A stretch of DNA of 64,000 nucleotides from Alicyclobacillus sp. SP_1 (GTDB lineage: Bacteria; Bacillota; Bacilli; Alicyclobacillales; Alicyclobacillaceae), in contig NZ_JAMCCX010000072.1 of assembly GCF_024706985.1 (NCBI RefSeq), positions 62,001 through 126,000 of the forward strand, read 5' to 3'. A program made the position numbers and the translations under genes. This document shows, piece by piece, positions 21,448-44,347 of this stretch. The stretch's first letter is position 1, and the number at the start of each line of letters is the position of its first letter. Below the pieces are notes generated by a model. It ran no database searches. It had not been told where the DNA came from and saw only the letters and a list, made by a program, of their open reading frames with translations.

Positions 21448-22314
21448 ATGGCGACAGACAGCGTTCACGCAAAACAATCCGGTACCTTCACGCTTGGAGG
21501 AGATTTGCCGGTTCACCGCCTCGGCTATGGCGCAATGCAATTGACGGGCCCTGGCATTTGGGGAGACCCGAAAGACCCTGACGAGGCGGTTCGCGTGCTC
21601 AAGCGCGCGCTTGAACTCGGCGTCAACTTTATCGATACAGCCGACTCATATGGACCGTTCGTATCGGAGATGCTCATCCGCAAAGCACTGCATCCGTATC
21701 CGAAAGACTTGGTTATCGCGACCAAAGCAGGTCTGACTCGATGCGGTCCCAACGATTGGCGCCCAGTCGGCCGACCCGAATATCTGCGCCAGCAAGTCGA
21801 GCTCAGTCTGCGCCATCTGGGTCTAGAGCGGATCGACCTCTTGCAGTTGCACCGCATTGACCCGAAGGTTCCATTGGAGGAACAAATTGGGGAGCTTGCT
21901 TTGCTCCAAAAAGAGGGGAAAATTCGCCACATTGGCCTAAGCGAAGTGACCGTGGAACAGATTGAGCAGGCGAAGAAGATTGCAACCATCGTGTCGGTGC
22001 AAAATTTGTACAATCTGGCCAAGCGAGACGCCGAATCCGTGCTCAGATACTGCGAAGAACACGAGATGGGCTTCATCCCCTGGTTCCCGCTTGCGACTGG
22101 CGCACTTGCCAAAGAAGGTGGCCCGCTGGATGAACTCGCAAAACGTCATCAGGCGAAGCCATCGCAACTCGCACTGGCCTGGTTGCTCAAAAAATCGCCT
22201 GTCATGTTGCCCATACCTGGAACATCCTCCGTTGCCCATCTCGAAGAGAATATGGCAGCAGCTGCGATAACACTCGACCCAGCGGACTTCGACGCGCTGA
22301 CCCACGCCGTCTGA
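21448..22314 (+). CDS. aldo/keto reductase
   Basis: A 288-residue NAD(P)H-dependent reductase of the AKR superfamily. The catalytic tetrad is visible: Asp and Tyr in [11 protein letters not shown], Lys in [10 protein letters not shown] and His in LLQLHRIDP. The C-terminal [14 protein letters not shown] is the cofactor phosphate-binding region. GGAGG lies nine bases before ATG 21448. It is divergent from the MarR gene and could be part of the same stress response. The substrate is unknown. Confidence 0.92.
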
Positions 22315-35843: not shown

Positions 35844-36959
35844 ATGATGGATGATGTCTTGCTGAAACTCGGGCAAAATGTTTCCCATTTGATGGAGGTC
35901 AACCGAGCCATTGATGAAGCCATCATTTTGGCTATCACCAACCAACAAGGCATGATTACCTTTGCCAACAAAAAATTCTGTGACATCTCCCAATACAGCC
36001 AACAAGAACTCATTGGGCAGAATCATCGGATCGTCAATTCTGGATTTCATCCACCGGAGTTTTTCAAAGACCTCTGGCGCACCATCGGTCAAGGGCGAAT
36101 CTGGAAAGGCGAAATCCGAAATCGGGCAAAAAATGGCGACTTGTACTGGGTTGACACCACCATCGTTCCCTGCCTCGACGAGAAGGGAAAACCGTATCAA
36201 TATATTGCTTTTCGTGTCGACATCACGGCGAGAAAGCACGTGGAAGAGCAGATGCGTCGCCTTGACCAACTGCAGATTGCTGGACAAATCTCCGCCAGCA
36301 TTGCGCATGAGATACGAAACCCGCTTGCGGCCATCCAGTGGACTTTGCTCTCGTTGTCCAACGATGCTGCCGACCGCGAACATCAACTGTCTCTGGTTCA
36401 GGCGGAATTGACTAGAATTGATGCCATCTTGACGGAATTTCTCACCCTGTCGAAAAAGAGAGAGTCTGTCTTCTTCGAAATTGACTTGCCAGACTTAGTT
36501 TGCTGCAAGACGGTCGACATCGTTGCGGCGCAAGCCCGGCAGCAAGGGATTACTCTCGACGTCGAGGTGCATTCGGTCTCCGGAAAGGTCTGGGGCGATG
36601 AACACCAACTTCGTCAGGTCTTTCTCAATCTCATGAAGAATGCCTTGGAGTCGATGGAAGTCGGTGGACGGCTGACCGTTCGAGCAGAGCAAACTCACGA
36701 CTCTTCCAACCGCCCGTGCATCTCCATTGCGATAGCGGACAGTGGATGCGGTATGACGGCTTGGCAACTCTCGAATTTAGAGCGGGCCTTTTTCACGACC
36801 AAACCGGATGGAACTGGTTTAGGACTCACCGTATGCCACCAGATTCTGCATTCCCACCAAGGTGCCTTAAACTTTCGCAGTCAAGTCGGAGAAGGGACCA
36901 CTGCTACGGTCACCCTTCCGCTTTACGAATCTTCTGAGGGGACAGGCGGCAATGTGTAG
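35844..36959 (+). CDS. cytoplasmic PAS-domain histidine kinase
   Basis: A 371-residue kinase without membrane segments. PAS domain at residues about 20-130 (ITNQQGMITFANKKFCDISQYS), HisKA helix with SIAHEIRNPLAAIQW near residue 155, and HATPase_c about 250-365 (NLMKNALESMEVGGR, IADSGCGM, GTGLGLTVCH). A start nearby could be ATG 35847. It lies divergent from the cupin gene and is convergent with a NarL-type regulator with a 37-bp overlap. The stimulus, perhaps redox or NO, is unknown. Confidence 0.9.
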   Translation: MMDDVLLKLGQNVSHLMEVNRAIDEAIILAITNQQGMITFANKKFCDISQYSQQELIGQNHRIVNSGFHPPEFFKDLWRTIGQGRIWKGEIRNRAKNGDLYWVDTTIVPCLDEKGKPYQYIAFRVDITARKHVEEQMRRLDQLQIAGQISASIAHEIRNPLAAIQWTLLSLSNDAADREHQLSLVQAELTRIDAILTEFLTLSKKRESVFFEIDLPDLVCCKTVDIVAAQARQQGITLDVEVHSVSGKVWGDEHQLRQVFLNLMKNALESMEVGGRLTVRAEQTHDSSNRPCISIAIADSGCGMTAWQLSNLERAFFTTKPDGTGLGLTVCHQILHSHQGALNFRSQVGEGTTATVTLPLYESSEGTGGNV

Positions 36960-37618
36960 CCTTCCCGCACCGCGTAGGCTGCGGCCTGTACTCGATTAGC
37001 CAGATGCAATTTCTCCAAAATATTTCTAACGTGATTGCGGACGGTATTTTCGCTAATAAACAGTGCCTTTGCGATGTGCTGGTTGGATGCTCCTATGCTC
37101 AGTTGGCGCAATACATCCTGCTCTCGTTGTGTCAAAGGTTCGATGCTCTCCGGAGAATGGACTTTTCGCTGGGGCGCTAGCTCCGTCAAGATGCGCAGCG
37201 CCAATTGTTCCGGAATAACAGGCTCTTTTCGATAGACGCGTTGAATGCTCTCTAAGACGTGGTCCGGACTGGAGGTCTTCAACACATACCCCAACGCACC
37301 CGCTTGAATCGCATCAAACAGAGATTCCTCTGTGTCGGAGGCCGTTAACATAAGTATTCCTATTTCAGGGAATTCTCGGTGAATGACTTTGGTTGCTGTT
37401 AATCCGTCCCATACCGGCATGTGAATATCCATGAGGACGACATCCAGATTCCTTGCCGAGTTGCAGTGTTCAAACGCTTGTTGTCCGTTAGCCACATCTC
37501 CAACAACGTCAATCCAAGGCACCCGGGTCAGGATGGCTTTCACGCCTTGACGAAACAATTCATGGTCATCGGCAAGGAGAACACGAATGCGCGTCTCGCC
37601 CATTTTTTCGTCTGGCAC
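36923..37618 (-). CDS. NarL/FixJ family response regulator
   Basis: A 231-residue regulator. Receiver domain residues 5-120: VLLADDHELFRQG acidic pocket, Asp in VVLMDIHMPVWDG, and Thr/Lys in MLTASDTEES and YVLKTSSPD. LuxR-type helix-turn-helix at 160-220 (LTQREQDVLRQLSIGASNQHIAKAL, cut here to two parts, and TVRNHVRNILEKL). GTG 37618 has GGAGG eight bases upstream. It probably works with the convergent kinase. Confidence 0.9.
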   Translation of the reverse strand: MPDEKMGETRIRVLLADDHELFRQGVKAILTRVPWIDVVGDVANGQQAFEHCNSARNLDVVLMDIHMPVWDGLTATKVIHREFPEIGILMLTASDTEESLFDAIQAGALGYVLKTSSPDHVLESIQRVYRKEPVIPEQLALRILTELAPQRKVHSPESIEPLTQREQDVLRQLSIGASNQHIAKALFISENTVRNHVRNILEKLHLANRVQAAAYAVREGYTLPPVPSEDS

Positions 37619-37748
37619 CCTGCCCACCTCCTTTGGTTCCGCCTACCCTGGTCCACGCGAACGATGCAGCACCAGAGACCACACCACAGGCATCCCGGGC
37701 TGTCTGAAGGGTAGTGGTAGCGCGTCCCATGACAAACTCCTACAACGA

Positions 37749-38494: not shown

Positions 38495-39712
38495 TTACGC
38501 CAAGCGCTGTAAGTAGACATTGAGCAAACGCTGGGCAATGTCTGGTGGCATCTTCCCTTTAAGATGAAGGAGATAATCGTCGAAAGCTTTCTTCATGAAG
38601 CTGGATACTGCTCCATAATACGCAATGTCCATATTTCCTCCATACAGCGTATTCGAACGAATGAGCATCGCCCTGTGGTTTCCCATGTTCATAATGCAAA
38701 AAATCTCTGGGTCAAAGTCATGAATGGCCCCTCGTCCGGTCAATTCCCGGTGCAGGAGACTGGCCACCAAGGCACCCTGTTCTACCGCTAAATGGCCCAA
38801 CTTCGGCACCGTCCGAGAGGCTCCATCGCCAATCGCATAGATATCTGGATAATCCAGATGGCGAAATTGTTCGTCCGTGGGTGCAAACCCCGCTTCGTCG
38901 CCAAGATGACTTTCCGCGACAACCTCTGGACCGCGATACGCAGGGATGAGAATCGACAGTGCCGAAGGAATTTCTGTCCCGTCCGCAAACACCACTTTGT
39001 CCGCTTCCAGATGATCGATGATTTTCTTGGTCTCGATACCAATTTGATGCTGCTCGGTGAACTCCCCAAACGCTTCATGCACCTTGTCTCCGACATCCTC
39101 AAAAAAGACATCGGCTGGACTGAAGCAATGAATGCGGGACTTTTCCCGAAGACCGCGTCTTTGCAGATACGCATCCACCATAAACGCAATTTCCCCAACA
39201 GGTCCCTCACATGCCGCTTTTAAAAACGGAACATCCGGAGTACGCGTGCCTTGAGTCATAGGTGCAGAACCAATCACAAGGTCTCCACCCGAGAATTCTT
39301 CTAAAGCCTGAAAGAGGCGTGGCGCGAGAACATCCGTGCAGACCGAATGCCCGAAGTCGGAAAAGCCCGGAATGGCACGAAAGTCTTTCTGTGCGCCCAA
39401 GGCGAGAACGAGGGTGTCGTAGAAAATTTTTGTGCCGTCTTCCAAAACGACCGACTTGTCCTCCGGGTCAATCCGCTGCACCCGACTGCAAAGGAATGTG
39501 CCATGCGCTTCAATCACCGGACGCACTGCAAAAGTCACATCCTGAATGCCCTTCTCCCCCATGGCTACTTCTGGCAGCGACGGCTTCAACAAAAAGGTCT
39601 CTCGCTCGTCAATGACCGTTAACTGTACCTGCTCTTTTTTCGCCCACGGAACGATGTGATGAAAAACGGTCATTCCACCAAAGCCAGCTCCCAAAATCAC
39701 GACTCTATACAC
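38495..39712 (-). CDS. SQR-like FAD-dependent quinone oxidoreductase
   Basis: A 405-residue flavoprotein of the sulfide:quinone oxidoreductase/type II NADH dehydrogenase superfamily. RVVILGAGFGGMTV is the FAD dinucleotide fold, and DIYAIGDGASRTVPKLGHLA is the second FAD segment. The cysteine in KAACEGPVGEIAF aligns with the SQR catalytic region, and another lies in IFCIMNMGNHRAM. SQR is favoured but NADH oxidation is possible. GTG 39712 has GGAGG seven bases upstream. It is the last gene of the cytochrome b operon. Confidence 0.75.
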   Translation of the reverse strand: MYRVVILGAGFGGMTVFHHIVPWAKKEQVQLTVIDERETFLLKPSLPEVAMGEKGIQDVTFAVRPVIEAHGTFLCSRVQRIDPEDKSVVLEDGTKIFYDTLVLALGAQKDFRAIPGFSDFGHSVCTDVLAPRLFQALEEFSGGDLVIGSAPMTQGTRTPDVPFLKAACEGPVGEIAFMVDAYLQRRGLREKSRIHCFSPADVFFEDVGDKVHEAFGEFTEQHQIGIETKKIIDHLEADKVVFADGTEIPSALSILIPAYRGPEVVAESHLGDEAGFAPTDEQFRHLDYPDIYAIGDGASRTVPKLGHLAVEQGALVASLLHRELTGRGAIHDFDPEIFCIMNMGNHRAMLIRSNTLYGGNMDIAYYGAVSSFMKKAFDDYLLHLKGKMPPDIAQRLLNVYLQRLA

Positions 39713-39870
39713 ACAATGTCCTCCCCTAGTAGAGTGCACTCCGAAGCAACCACGCTTCCGACAGTCTGGAACCACTCTCTGTAATCACAGTCTAACAACA
39801 CCCGTACCGAACTGCGAGCGTATTGCGCATCGAGCCACTGCCACGTGGTTTCGTTGATGAGAATTCGCAT
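39697..39870 (-). CDS. 57-residue protein overlapping the SQR-like gene
   Basis: MRILINETTWQWLDAQYARS followed by a short segment with two cysteines (LLDCDYREW, ASECTLL). No family recognised. The ATG at 39870 has GAGAGGGA seven bases before it. Its 3' end overlaps the SQR-like start by 16 bp, which points to translational coupling. Confidence 0.55.
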   Translation of the reverse strand: MRILINETTWQWLDAQYARSSVRVLLDCDYREWFQTVGSVVASECTLLGEDIVCIES

Positions 39871-39925
39871 GGAATTTCCCTCTCTCTTATCTGCCACAGG
39901 AGAAAGCGCAGACCGTGCTTCTGCC

Positions 39926-40561
39926 TCATGCATCGCTCTCCCCATCTTTCTTCTCAAGGGGCTGCTCGGACGGCCTTTGCGTCAATCCTTGAAAGAGGCT
40001 CTCTAACCGCTCAAGCTCGGAGGTCGCCGCCCGCACACTTCCGTCTTCGACGCCGTCCCGAAGGGGAAACAAGAGAAATCGCACCGCAGCCAGGGAAGAG
40101 CGAATGTCATTGACCACTCTCCAGGGAAGCACCGAATCCGTCGTGCCGTTTCGCCCCACATCGAGCCCGTCTCCGCCCCCTCGTGTCCGAGCTTCCTGCT
40201 GCCGGCGGAGCATCGCGTGATGGTACCCAAGCCAGCAGATGTTCACCACCCCAATCCCTTGAACGATAGCCAAACTCAGCGTGGTGTCTGTTGTCATCGA
40301 CGGATGAAGGAACCCATCCACAGCCCATGCCGTGCAGGAGAAAAAGCCGAGGCACAGTGCTGGTACCAAGCCACCAAAGTAAGCCAGAGAACCTATCAGC
40401 GCGAGTCGAAGAGAAAACCATGGAAACCCCGAAAAGAGTCCGAAGACGGCCAACAGGCTGGACAGTAACGCCATCCACAAAGGCAGATGCGTACGTCCGA
40501 ACGCCAGAAAGGCCTCATCCCACGCTTGGAGCATCTGCCAACCCCGAACCACACGATGCAT
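39926..40561 (-). CDS. membrane protein with degenerate histidine kinase helix
   Basis: A 211-residue protein with four hydrophobic segments at residues about 25-120, then a cytoplasmic tail. The tail has VVNDIRSSLAAVRFLLFPL and ATSELERLESLFQGLTQ. These align by eye with the two helices of a HisKA phosphoacceptor domain, where the usual HExRNPLAAIR becomes NDIRSSLAAVR: the histidine is lost. No ATPase domain follows. It could be a dimerising sensor remnant or binding scaffold in a respiratory operon. Confidence 0.6.
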   Translation of the reverse strand: MHRVVRGWQMLQAWDEAFLAFGRTHLPLWMALLSSLLAVFGLFSGFPWFSLRLALIGSLAYFGGLVPALCLGFFSCTAWAVDGFLHPSMTTDTTLSLAIVQGIGVVNICWLGYHHAMLRRQQEARTRGGGDGLDVGRNGTTDSVLPWRVVNDIRSSLAAVRFLLFPLRDGVEDGSVRAATSELERLESLFQGLTQRPSEQPLEKKDGESDA

Positions 40562-40586
40562 CCGTCGCCCCCACCCTTCGTTCGAG

Positions 40587-40808
40587 TCAGACGGCCTTCC
40601 CTTCGGCCCGCTGTTTGCGATAGATTTGCCGGGCAGACGCCCACATGTTCCCAGTCACCCAAATGCCTAACAAGAGAATCGGAATGCCAAAAATCAAATT
40701 GTTGGTCTCTCCTTGAAAAATGCCGCGATACACCAACGCCGTTCCATACACCCCAGAAGCAAGCGCCAACATCCATATGGCATACATCCGCACGACTTTT
40801 CCCATCAT
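40587..40808 (-). CDS. small two-helix membrane protein in cytochrome b operon
   Basis: A 73-residue protein with two hydrophobic stretches (RMYAIWMLALASGVYGTAL and LIFGIPILLLGIWVTGNMW). ATG 40808 has GAGGAGG next to it; a frame 42 bases longer lacks a ribosome site. No family recognised. It lies between the 384-residue partner and the degenerate-kinase membrane protein. Confidence 0.65.
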   Translation of the reverse strand: MMGKVVRMYAIWMLALASGVYGTALVYRGIFQGETNNLIFGIPILLLGIWVTGNMWASARQIYRKQRAEGKAV

Positions 40809-40872
40809 CCGTTCCTCCTCAAAAGATTCGTTTGCTTTCCAATCGAACATCCACCGTCACGCTCGTCGTTTC

Positions 40873-42027
40873 TCACATGCCGAAGGGTGCACCGGACGTC
40901 CCTTTCCCCTCTGGTCTCGGTGGCATCGGCACATTTTGTTTCCCCTCATAGCAAGCAGGCGAGGCTGACGCTGCCGTTGCTGCTACTTTCGGACCACGAA
41001 ACTCCTGCGTACAAGCCGCTTTCAGCGGACACGTGGCGCACGTCTTGTTCGTCTCGAGTCTCCGATACCAGTCCCGCCAAATCAACCGATGCACAGGCAG
41101 TGCCCTCGGTAACTTATTCAATCCCGGAATCCAAGGCAGGAGCGTCAAAAGCACGAACAGGAAAGCAATGGTGTAAGCGACGAACTCGTCTCCCCAAGGT
41201 GCGGTCGATCCCGGTGGAATCTGATACAGAAACGTATAGGGCGTCAGCCACCACGGACCGGGGTACGGCTGCTCATCGTGGTTGATGCCCCACTGCCCGC
41301 CTTTCATGTCAATCCCGTGGGCAATCTGATGGAGCGCCTTACCTTGCAAAAATAAAAGGTCATCTTGAATGTTGTAGCGATAAATCGTCCCTGGATTGCT
41401 CTCCCGGTCTAATGCTCCCGACAGTAGACCTGATTTGGCAAACGACAGTTCCGCTGTCATCATGGTTTGAACCGGTCCATAGTCCCCACTGGGAACCACG
41501 ACGCGCCCATTCACCACGGCCGCCTTTTTCAAGGCATTCGCGTAGTTCATAGCCCACGTTTGTTGCGTAGCAAACGGCGCCGCTTGGAAGGTTGCCACTG
41601 CCCCGCTCAAGGCTGCATTATTGGATGCCGTCGCCAACATGCGCAGCGGGTTCAAGACGTCGTCCGTCGCCGTGTTGACCGGATACGGCGTTCCCCAAAA
41701 AGTTTGTGGATGATATCCTAAAATCGATTGCACATGTTGCGGCGCTTCCCCGTGAAATCCGTGATTATACGGAGGACCGTAATGAGACATTTCGCCTGTG
41801 CCGTCGAGATCACCCAAGGCCGTCTGTTCGAGCAGGATGGGCTTGGTGCTGGCAATCTGCTGATTGGTGACGGCGGGGCGATACGGGGCCCCGAAGAACG
41901 CTGCCACGCCGACAATCAATACCCCGGCGATGACCAGGCTGACTGTTCCCTCTTTGACCATGTCAAACTCTTTTTGCGGAAATTGAAGTGTGTCCCGAGA
42001 AAATCGTGCTCGACGTGTCTTCGCCAT
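40873..42027 (-). CDS. large-domain partner of cytochrome b6-type subunit, no CxxCH
   Basis: A 384-residue protein. One membrane helix near the N-terminus (TVSLVIAGVLIVGVAAFF), a long extracytoplasmic domain (about 45-290) rich in Gly, Pro and Trp, a second helix (VAYTIAFLFVLLTLLPWI) and a basic cytoplasmic tail with CATCPLKAAC. It has no CxxCH heme c motif and no Rieske motif. ATG 42027 has AAGGAGG nine bases upstream. Directly downstream of the cytochrome b gene, so it probably forms a quinol-linked complex with it. Family not recognised. Confidence 0.7.
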   Translation of the reverse strand: MAKTRRARFSRDTLQFPQKEFDMVKEGTVSLVIAGVLIVGVAAFFGAPYRPAVTNQQIASTKPILLEQTALGDLDGTGEMSHYGPPYNHGFHGEAPQHVQSILGYHPQTFWGTPYPVNTATDDVLNPLRMLATASNNAALSGAVATFQAAPFATQQTWAMNYANALKKAAVVNGRVVVPSGDYGPVQTMMTAELSFAKSGLLSGALDRESNPGTIYRYNIQDDLLFLQGKALHQIAHGIDMKGGQWGINHDEQPYPGPWWLTPYTFLYQIPPGSTAPWGDEFVAYTIAFLFVLLTLLPWIPGLNKLPRALPVHRLIWRDWYRRLETNKTCATCPLKAACTQEFRGPKVAATAASASPACYEGKQNVPMPPRPEGKGTSGAPFGM

Positions 42028-42028
42028 C

Positions 42029-42640
42029 TCACGCATCCTCCTTGGAACGAGACTTGGCTCGATAGGGCGGTACTACGCCTTTGCTGCGAACCGCCAACAT
42101 GTGCAGTCCAACCAAACCAATCAAAATCAACGGCAGTACGGCGATGTGTAGCCCATACACCTGACCGTTGTTGAGGATGTTCAAAAACCCATCCAGACCC
42201 GCTCCGTTGAATGCGTCCTTGCTTTGCACCTGGTTCCACTGAGCAAAGAAGTCGCCGCGACTGAGATAGCCGGTAAACGCCTCCACGACAGCAACCGCGA
42301 ACGAAAGGGAGCCTAAGACCCAAGTCATAGCGCGTCCTTCTCGCCAGGAACCCATAAAGAACTGCCCGACTAAGTGCATGGTCATAAAGAAGAAAAATGC
42401 TTGGACGCTCCAAAAATGAACACTGCGCATAAAGTCTCCGAGAGACGTATGCTGATACCAGAGCGGCCCCTTGGCCGCCATGATGACTCCTGACGCAATG
42501 CAGAAAACGAGACTGCTGAGAGTGAAAACTCCGAAGCTATACACCAAAGACGATACATACACGGGTTGCTCGGAAGGGAGCAGGTTATCCCAGGTCAATT
42601 TTTCCGACACTTTGGTTCGAATGGCCCGTGACCAGTTCAC
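42029..42640 (-). CDS. diheme cytochrome b6-type subunit
   Basis: A 203-residue protein with four membrane helices. Helix 2 has two histidines 13 residues apart (HFWSVQAFFFFMTMH) and helix 4 two histidines 14 apart (HIAVLPLILIGLVGLH), the pattern of cytochrome b6/bc1 diheme ligands. It should carry two b hemes across the membrane. No subunit IV, Rieske protein or cytochrome c is encoded in the window. GTG 42640 overlaps the preceding peptide's stop (GTGA). Confidence 0.9.
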   Translation of the reverse strand: MNWSRAIRTKVSEKLTWDNLLPSEQPVYVSSLVYSFGVFTLSSLVFCIASGVIMAAKGPLWYQHTSLGDFMRSVHFWSVQAFFFFMTMHLVGQFFMGSWREGRAMTWVLGSLSFAVAVVEAFTGYLSRGDFFAQWNQVQSKDAFNGAGLDGFLNILNNGQVYGLHIAVLPLILIGLVGLHMLAVRSKGVVPPYRAKSRSKEDA

Positions 42641-42759
42641 GATTTTTTCCCGCCTTTTCCTTTTCCGTGCGGATACTTAAAGGCAACAAATCCGATAAAT
42701 GCAGCCAGCCACAGAAATCCAACGTAATAATTCGGCCATGCATTGGCGTAGTCGACCAT
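42637..42759 (-). CDS. 40-residue membrane peptide, first gene of cytochrome b operon
   Basis: A 40-residue peptide, MVDYANAWPNYYVG, then one hydrophobic helix (FLWLAAFIGFVAF) and a Lys/Gly-rich tail (KYPHGKGKGGKKS). AAAGGGAG lies eight bases before the ATG at 42759, and the TGA stop overlaps the cytochrome b GTG start. Its size, single helix and tight coupling suggest a small respiratory-complex subunit. It is short enough to be skipped by usual gene finders. Confidence 0.75.
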   Translation of the reverse strand: MVDYANAWPNYYVGFLWLAAFIGFVAFKYPHGKGKGGKKS

Positions 42760-42885
42760 GAGCTACACTCCCTTTCTTGTTCTGCTTACAAGGTTCATGA
42801 TAGAGACCGTGCAGCGTTTCAGGCAGTTCCAAACGGACTATCTTCGGCCCGCATCGAGACTAGTTCAAAGAGACCCCTTCTCATG

Positions 42886-42915
42886 CAAAAAGACTAGGTC
42901 TCCCTAGTCTTTTTG
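42886..42915. terminator. bidirectional terminator upstream of the cytochrome b operon
   Basis: A perfect 13-bp stem (42886-42898 and 42903-42915, CAAAAAGACTAGG and complement) with loop TCTC. T5 runs end both strands. It should end the PAS-HD gene transcript and insulates the cytochrome b operon, whose promoter lies at 42760-42885. Confidence 0.85.
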
Positions 42916-42972: not shown

Positions 42973-44025
42973 CTATTCGCGAGTCTGCGGATGTTGATGT
43001 TCACCGAGCGGCTCCCACTCACGCTGCCCAGTGTATAAGTTCACGGTTCGAATCCCATTGTACTCGGGTCTGTGGTTGACTTCGCGGATTTTGACGGTGC
43101 AATCTTGCACATCAAAACAGACACTGACTCCACCCCGCGTGACAGCCGCAGAAGTTCCATCCACGATTTGAAACAGACGTAGCATAGGCAAAAGTCTGCG
43201 CGGAAATGTCTCCGGTAATTCGCGCTCGGAATGATGATGAAATCGGATGATGTCTACAATGTCATCATTCTGATTGTAATAATACTTGGCCATATCGGCG
43301 CTACGGTCCGCATGCTGCTTGCCATCTTCAAAGACGGACCGAGGGTCAACCACATCACCTACTTTTAAAATTGGCTGTGACTTTCCTATATCATGGTAAA
43401 CAAATACTTGTACCAGTTCATCCTTGTCAATGCCTATCAGCCGACTCACGCCTTTTGCCGTCAACTGAGAGAAAATTTTCAGGCAGTTGACCACATGCCG
43501 ATATCCACCATCAACAACAATGCCTGTAATGGTGATTTGCTTTGTGTCCGGATTGTACCAATCTTGATACTCGGGGATGGAACGAAGGCGATATTCCACT
43601 TTACTGTTCGGCAACGTCAGCGCAAACGCCATATCGAGTTCTTGCTCCATCTCCCGCAGATGCGTCACATCCTCTGCAGTAATGAGCACGCCGCGCAAGC
43701 CCTCGTGAATCGTCACTGGCACAAGATTGACGGACAATGTGCGACCATCCGTCGTCTGACGCATGATACCCCGTACCGCAACATCTCTCTTCAACACTTC
43801 ATGAACTTTTGTGTTTTCCCGATTTCCATGAAGGACCCATGCTCCCAATTCGTCAAAAAAATGTCGTCCTATGTAATCGTCACTCGTGGTACCAAGCATC
43901 CGCTTTGCAGACTGATTCATAAAGGTCACGCGGAAGTCCTCATCAATGAGAATGAGCATTTCCTCCATGGCTTCTGCAATCGGCTCAAACAGAAAGGCCC
44001 TGTAATTTAACAGGTTTTCCATCAT
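42973..44025 (-). CDS. PAS domain plus HD-type phosphohydrolase protein
   Basis: A 350-residue protein. PAS domain about 20-130 (LILIDEDFRVTFMNQSAKRMLG), then an HD-type domain: VVNCLKIFSQLTAKG, VFVYHDIGKSQP (the HD pair), HADRSADMAKYYY and IIRFHHHSEREL. The HHH-SEREL motif lacks the GYP of HD-GYP cyclic-di-GMP enzymes. It could be a signal-responsive nucleotide or phosphate hydrolase. ATG 44025 has AAGGGTGG upstream. Confidence 0.8.
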   Translation of the reverse strand: MMENLLNYRAFLFEPIAEAMEEMLILIDEDFRVTFMNQSAKRMLGTTSDDYIGRHFFDELGAWVLHGNRENTKVHEVLKRDVAVRGIMRQTTDGRTLSVNLVPVTIHEGLRGVLITAEDVTHLREMEQELDMAFALTLPNSKVEYRLRSIPEYQDWYNPDTKQITITGIVVDGGYRHVVNCLKIFSQLTAKGVSRLIGIDKDELVQVFVYHDIGKSQPILKVGDVVDPRSVFEDGKQHADRSADMAKYYYNQNDDIVDIIRFHHHSERELPETFPRRLLPMLRLFQIVDGTSAAVTRGGVSVCFDVQDCTVKIREVNHRPEYNGIRTVNLYTGQREWEPLGEHQHPQTRE

Positions 44026-44347
44026 CTTAGCCACCCTTCTTCCCATCGAGAACATTCAAACAGGGTTCTGCGGATGCAGAACCCTGTCGCCTGAAACGTC
44101 TGCAACCCGGCTACCATAGACTTTCGTCGTTAGACCCGTGGCTTTGCGCCCGCAACTTTCGATGCGTTTGCCCATATTCACTTGTGGTCAAGATCATTGT
44201 ACAACGAACGAAACTTTCAGACAACCAAAAATTCACACCTGCGCCAAGGGTCCATACCGAGCGACTGGCAATCTCCTACCGTGAGACCCACTGCCCCTGA
44301 GTTCGATTTTTCCGGGAAATCTCTCTTTACAATGGACGCAATGCGAC
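44026..44347. other. 322-bp intergenic region with a hairpin
   Basis: Holds a perfect 12-bp hairpin (44060-44087, below) and the promoter area of the PAS-HD gene, but no supported coding gene. The weak frame on the plus strand at 44182 is not supported by a ribosome site. Confidence 0.4.
44060..44087 (-). terminator. probable terminator of the solute-binding protein gene
   Basis: A perfect 12-bp stem (ACAGGGTTCTGC and complement) with loop GGAT, about 260 bp after the binding protein stop and 35 bp before the PAS-HD start. On the minus strand it is followed by TTTGAATG, a weak T-run. It may terminate read-through or act as an attenuator of the PAS-HD gene. Confidence 0.5.

Follow-up and report, generated by a model that had tools for sequence, protein, structure and literature searches.

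Within the 64-kb window, the whole stretch of DNA analyzed here and the frame for all positions given unless noted, the products of the genes at 42759–40587 would assemble into a Rieske-free complex of the cytochrome bc/b6f superfamily that has four subunits: a cytochrome b6 with two b hemes, a remodeled subunit IV, and two small helical subunits. The module is the only cytochrome-bc-like complex of the genome (3.4 Mb, 99.98% complete), and it would occupy the place that bc1 has elsewhere. The role that we propose, at roughly even confidence, is to link the menaquinone pool, by electron exchange and without a Q-cycle, to outside cupredoxins serving CuA-type aa3 oxidases. How quinone is joined to the iron-oxidation chain is an open question in Gram-positive acidophiles, and the published Sulfobacillus genomes contain a cytochrome b and no bc complex.

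Seven reading frames were confirmed between 42759 and 38495, all on the minus strand and with short gaps or overlaps between them. The first four encode a single-helix peptide of 40 residues (p40; 42637–42759), a diheme cytochrome b6-type subunit of 203 residues (b6; 42029–42640), a two-helix partner of 387 residues (40873–42036), and a two-helix protein of 73 residues (p73; 40587–40808). They are followed by genes for a 211-residue membrane protein with a degenerate histidine-kinase dimerization helix (39926–40561), a 57-residue open reading frame that is uncertain as a gene (p57; 39697–39870), and a 405-residue sulfide:quinone oxidoreductase resembling that of Acidianus ambivalens (SQR; 38495–39712). 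The b6 gene starts with GTG and overlaps p40 by 4 nucleotides (GTGA); b6 and the partner overlap by 8 nucleotides and p57 and SQR by 16, and most starts are preceded by ribosome-binding-like purine runs. A hairpin with a T run, seen by eye at about 42885–42912, separates the operon from a PAS-HD gene upstream (42973–44055, minus strand; Pfam PAS_4 and HD). The operon encodes no Rieske protein, and no CxxCH motif is present in its called frames. The sequence-only reading, which had described seven frames with GTGA and 16-bp overlaps, one diheme b6, and neither a Rieske protein nor CxxCH, proved correct on these points.

The co-occurrence of the seven genes was then compared across 41 related genomes. 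The 387-residue protein is present in 26 of them, often in two to five copies, and the nearest named relative, Alicyclobacillus montanus, has 70% identity in this protein, which puts the source genome in the Alicyclobacillaceae. In the approximately 35 copies whose neighborhoods were inspected, p40, b6, the partner, and p73 are found together, and more than 20 of the related genomes have loci with the four genes in the same order. While b6 and the partner share 55–89% protein identity in the main groups, p40 precedes b6 in about 30 loci with 45–81% identity, and p73 comes after the partner in most loci with 27–66% identity. In a second, more divergent group, b6 and the partner have other small proteins on both sides; p40 is missing there, and a different one-helix protein of 76–85 residues is found in its position. 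A third group keeps b6 and the partner. The earlier idea of a single complex made from all seven gene products was therefore not borne out: the core of p40, b6, partner, and p73 is conserved, whereas the kinase-like gene, p57, and SQR are local additions. Beyond the close relatives, class- and phylum-wide searches detected the partner in nine genomes out of 300 in the class and six out of 398 in the phylum, among them three further families outside the class. No relatives were found on plasmids or viral contigs in the searches made.

The b6 subunit matches PF13631 (2.7e-15) and PF00033 (7.6e-10). In bc1, b6f, and Qcr complexes, two b hemes are held by four histidines in helices B and D, and b6 has the same arrangement, with His75, His89, His165, and His180 invariant among 15 homologues at spacings of 14 and 15. 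The position of the cysteine that binds heme ci covalently in b6f and Qcr is occupied by serine, and the LPWDQ motif of the cd loop is replaced. The best NCBIfam match of b6 is the ExtP b-type cytochrome (NF040969), but its score of 67.5 bits against a cut-off of 290 does not place b6 in that family. Among all modules, the most divergent group (L053, L054, L087, and L089) alone keeps a cysteine at the heme-ci position of b6.

The 387-residue partner probably descends from subunit IV, as suggested by a profile alignment with controls and by the position of its gene directly behind b6, just as qcrC and petD lie behind qcrB and petB. The protein has no relative in sequence searches of Pfam, NCBIfam, PHROGs, or the PDB, and PF00032 (subunit IV) was not detected in it. 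It was compared by profile–profile alignment (HH-suite) with QcrC of relatives having a normal bc complex, to which four known sequences were added (spinach PetD, Mastigocladus PetD, B. subtilis QcrC, and the C-terminal part of bovine cytochrome b). Residues 254–304 matched the QcrC/PetD segment that comprises the PDWY loop and helix F (E = 6.8e-5, score 38.8), and residues 20–44 aligned to the start of helix E, in colinear order. The score was 38.5 once the four added sequences were omitted, and the profile–profile probability for the match to subunit IV was 58–63%. As controls, 100 column shuffles reached at most 24.6, reversal gave 18.2, and twenty other membrane families used as decoys reached at most 19.9.

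The partner has two helices, which run inside–out–inside by charge, and about 230 residues outside. Relative to subunit IV, it carries about 200 extra outside residues and is missing helix G; the ef loop would have grown into a roughly 200-residue outside domain. The P[E/D]WY quinol-oxidation motif, which is PDWY and not PEWY in the canonical subunit IV of related bacteria, gives way to PGPWW, PGAVW, or GPWY in the partner, and its acid is missing in all groups. Two AlphaFold models (pLDDT 68.7 and 72.5) yielded no fold match for the outside domain in a Foldseek search of the PDB. Metal binding by this domain was considered and dropped, as the outside part contains no conserved His, Cys, or Met and hence no conserved metal ligand.

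Like QcrABC, the menaquinol:cytochrome c reductase of Bacillus and Alicyclobacillus, and like b6f, the module has b6 and a probable subunit IV encoded by separate adjacent genes, the four heme histidines, and, in the profile alignment, a recognizable helix E start, ef loop, and helix F; the small helical subunits are a further likeness to b6f. However, the module is without the Rieske protein, cytochrome c/f, the heme-ci cysteine, and helix G, and it has lost the PEWY acid and LPWDQ and gained the large outside domain. It would thus show a bc-type complex that lost its Rieske protein, its cytochrome c, and its quinol-oxidation motif yet kept both b hemes.

The long forms of the partner, including the one encoded here, all end in a C-x2-C-x5-C...C-Y tail, which is placed on the cytoplasmic side by the positive-inside rule and could hold a cluster. 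Such a tail, kept on the inner side in every long form, would suit a quinone reductase on the cytoplasmic side, in which a ferredoxin or flavoprotein passes electrons to a possible Fe–S cluster in the tail, from which they cross the b hemes to reach menaquinone; some modules also have SQR/NDH-like or 2-oxoacid ferredoxin oxidoreductase genes nearby. However, the short forms and the divergent groups are without the tail, the neighbors vary between genomes, and SQR can reduce quinone by itself, which makes this function unlikely. In a separate observation, the cysteines of the tail (40873–41060; long forms L018–L034) resemble the C-terminal cysteines of radical SAM proteins, and several of the long-form modules (L021, L028, L032, L033, and L034) have a gene for a radical SAM protein nearby.

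The description of a bc-like complex without Rieske protein or cytochrome c was strengthened when the whole genome was searched for such parts encoded elsewhere. PF00033 has a single match, which is the b6 of the operon, canonical subunit IV (PF00032) has no match over the cut-off, and PF13442, the only cytochrome c family searched, has none. Five Rieske-domain genes are present, and none is recognizable as a membrane-type Rieske protein next to a cytochrome b. The three smaller ones look like soluble ferredoxin types without a membrane anchor, with an amidohydrolase-like gene, a ferredoxin-reductase-like gene, or SUF genes as neighbors, and the remaining two domains belong to open frames (386 and 413 residues) whose length is that of ring-hydroxylating oxygenases. 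These genes could speak for a bc-type enzyme completed by a Rieske-like or cytochrome partner from elsewhere in the genome, but their types and sizes, the absence of a PF13442 match, and the loss of the PEWY acid and the LPWDQ motif make such an enzyme very improbable. Among the 26 genomes with the module, canonical PF00032 is missing in 15, and 11 have both; strict replacement of the canonical Qcr complex by the module was rejected as not significant (p = 0.20).

The genome contains three COX1 genes. In one of the oxidases, subunit II lacks CuA, which marks the enzyme as a quinol oxidase; the other two have CuA subunits plus a SoxE-like lipoprotein, and a gene of the cupredoxin family sits before both. 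One cupredoxin gene of this genome is at 21668–22303 of contig C13. Relatives of this cupredoxin occur in 17 of the 41 genomes, 16 of which have the module (Fisher p = 7.5e-4), and counting by genus, which handles shared ancestry only partly, the cupredoxin is accompanied by the module in 11 of 11 cases (p = 0.001). One genus (g8) comprises one genome with both and one with neither, and ten module genomes are without this cupredoxin subfamily. One genome (G040) has a CtaG–cupredoxin–COX cluster at a distance of about 4 kb from the module, with a response regulator between them. The cupredoxin is a candidate redox partner of the complex, with the chances for and against about balanced. The SoxE (sulfocyanin)-like lipoproteins beside the CuA oxidases (L084 6095–6652 and L085 11974–12516, in local coordinates on contigs C13 and C50 of the same genome) both lack a cysteine in the copper-site region and therefore probably cannot hold normal type 1 copper.

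Either quinol would have to reach the CuA oxidases somehow, or those oxidases would serve only Fe(II), and the gap would in both cases be filled well by a b complex that has a docking domain outside. In the forward direction, electrons here would pass from sulfide via SQR to menaquinol, the b hemes, the cupredoxin, and the CuA oxidase, with no uphill step. In Fe(II)-grown cells, the complex is a candidate for carrying electrons from cupredoxin to quinone or the other way; in the reverse case, a high-potential cupredoxin would have to reduce heme b with no Rieske protein involved, a steeply uphill step. With low pH outside, the quinone potential at the outer face becomes higher. Because there is no Rieske protein, no bifurcation would be possible, and since the partner has no conserved outside metal ligand, direct contact between heme bp and the cupredoxin would be needed. 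More tentatively, the module might represent a separate bc-type class that has neither bifurcation nor an outside redox subunit, transfers electrons directly between quinone and cupredoxin, and supplies the quinone step that is missing from Fe(II) and sulfur oxidation as described for acidophilic Firmicutes.

In the available parts of the Sulfobacillus literature, the orphan cytochrome b was already noted as an oddity in 2014, when Justice et al. (2014, PMC4378227) wrote of a diheme cytochrome b lacking both cytochrome c and iron–sulfur protein that it "may perform some other function". Similarly, two cytochrome b copies and no bc1 were reported by Panyushkina et al. (2019, PMC6803676). In the "PET I operon" of S. 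acidophilus TPY, a cytochrome oxidase assembly gene is followed by petB-1 and "petC-1", and on FeSO4 versus sulfur, petB-1 was upregulated 32-fold and "petC-1" 13-fold (log2 4.99 and 3.68; PMC5114278). In S. thermosulfidooxidans, two adjacent cytochrome b/b6 genes and sulfocyanin drop when Fe(II) is scarce (PMC6315122). The operons of the first three papers likewise combine a diheme cytochrome b with the absence of an iron–sulfur protein and cytochrome c, in acidophilic iron-oxidizing Firmicutes. As genome G639 has the order CtaA–b6–partner, the same as in the TPY operon, "petC-1" is probably the partner, a match made by gene order and annotation. The same parts of those papers leave the function open and describe neither the partner, which one of them terms a cytochrome c subunit, nor the small subunits; the anatomy and spread of the complex, its Alicyclobacillaceae distribution, and a subunit IV origin are likewise not reported there. 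The module described here would give the orphan cytochrome b a defined partner and set of subunits, and a position in the chain that can be tested.

The closest solved relative of the SQR is the Acidianus ambivalens enzyme (3h8i/3h8l; E = 1.3e-52 to 3h8i). The alignment to 3h8i supports an FAD fold and places three cysteines at positions that we take to be catalytic, one of them at chain Cys129; a type III SQR model also matches, below its cut-off. The SQR gene stands outside the conserved core: at none of about 40 loci does the core have a close SQR or p57 beside it, and the flavoproteins near the module at four loci are only 27% identical to it. Enzymes of the SQR type reduce quinone directly, and the one encoded here looks like an ordinary SQR, a neighbor with its own activity rather than a part of the complex. 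A seven-gene complex in which SQR docks on the b subunit and feeds sulfide electrons to the b hemes, as had been suggested earlier, could draw on the 16-nucleotide overlap of SQR with p57 in the same operon but is hardly credible, given that SQR is not kept beside the module and that its cysteines fit a normal quinone-reducing enzyme.

In the 211-residue membrane protein, the H-box histidine is replaced by asparagine, and neither an ATPase domain nor a Pfam match was found. Its relatives occur at five other module loci (L019, L021, L023, L034, and L036) and share its operon position only in the sister species; they point to a family of small membrane proteins with a histidine-kinase dimerization helix, a His-to-Asn change, and no ATPase domain. 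The protein looks like a regulator remnant and is probably an accessory, regulatory product of the operon. There is no family match for p57 and no support from conservation, as the sister species has a different 94-residue frame in its place, similar over 17 residues only. This 94-residue protein (L019, 1415–1696, minus strand), encoded behind the kinase-like gene, appears HesB/YneR-like by eye and has no Pfam match; p57 may be a shortened relic of it.

Two further genes are possible regulators, a PAS-histidine kinase (35844–36959, plus strand; HATPase_c 3.9e-21) and a NarL/LuxR-type response regulator (36923–37627, minus strand; Response_reg 2e-24, GerE 1.4e-20), which are convergent, with ends overlapping by 37 bases. 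A relative of the kinase adjoins the module in the sister species, relatives of the response regulator are present at about 10 module loci, and relatives of the pair flank the module in other genomes.
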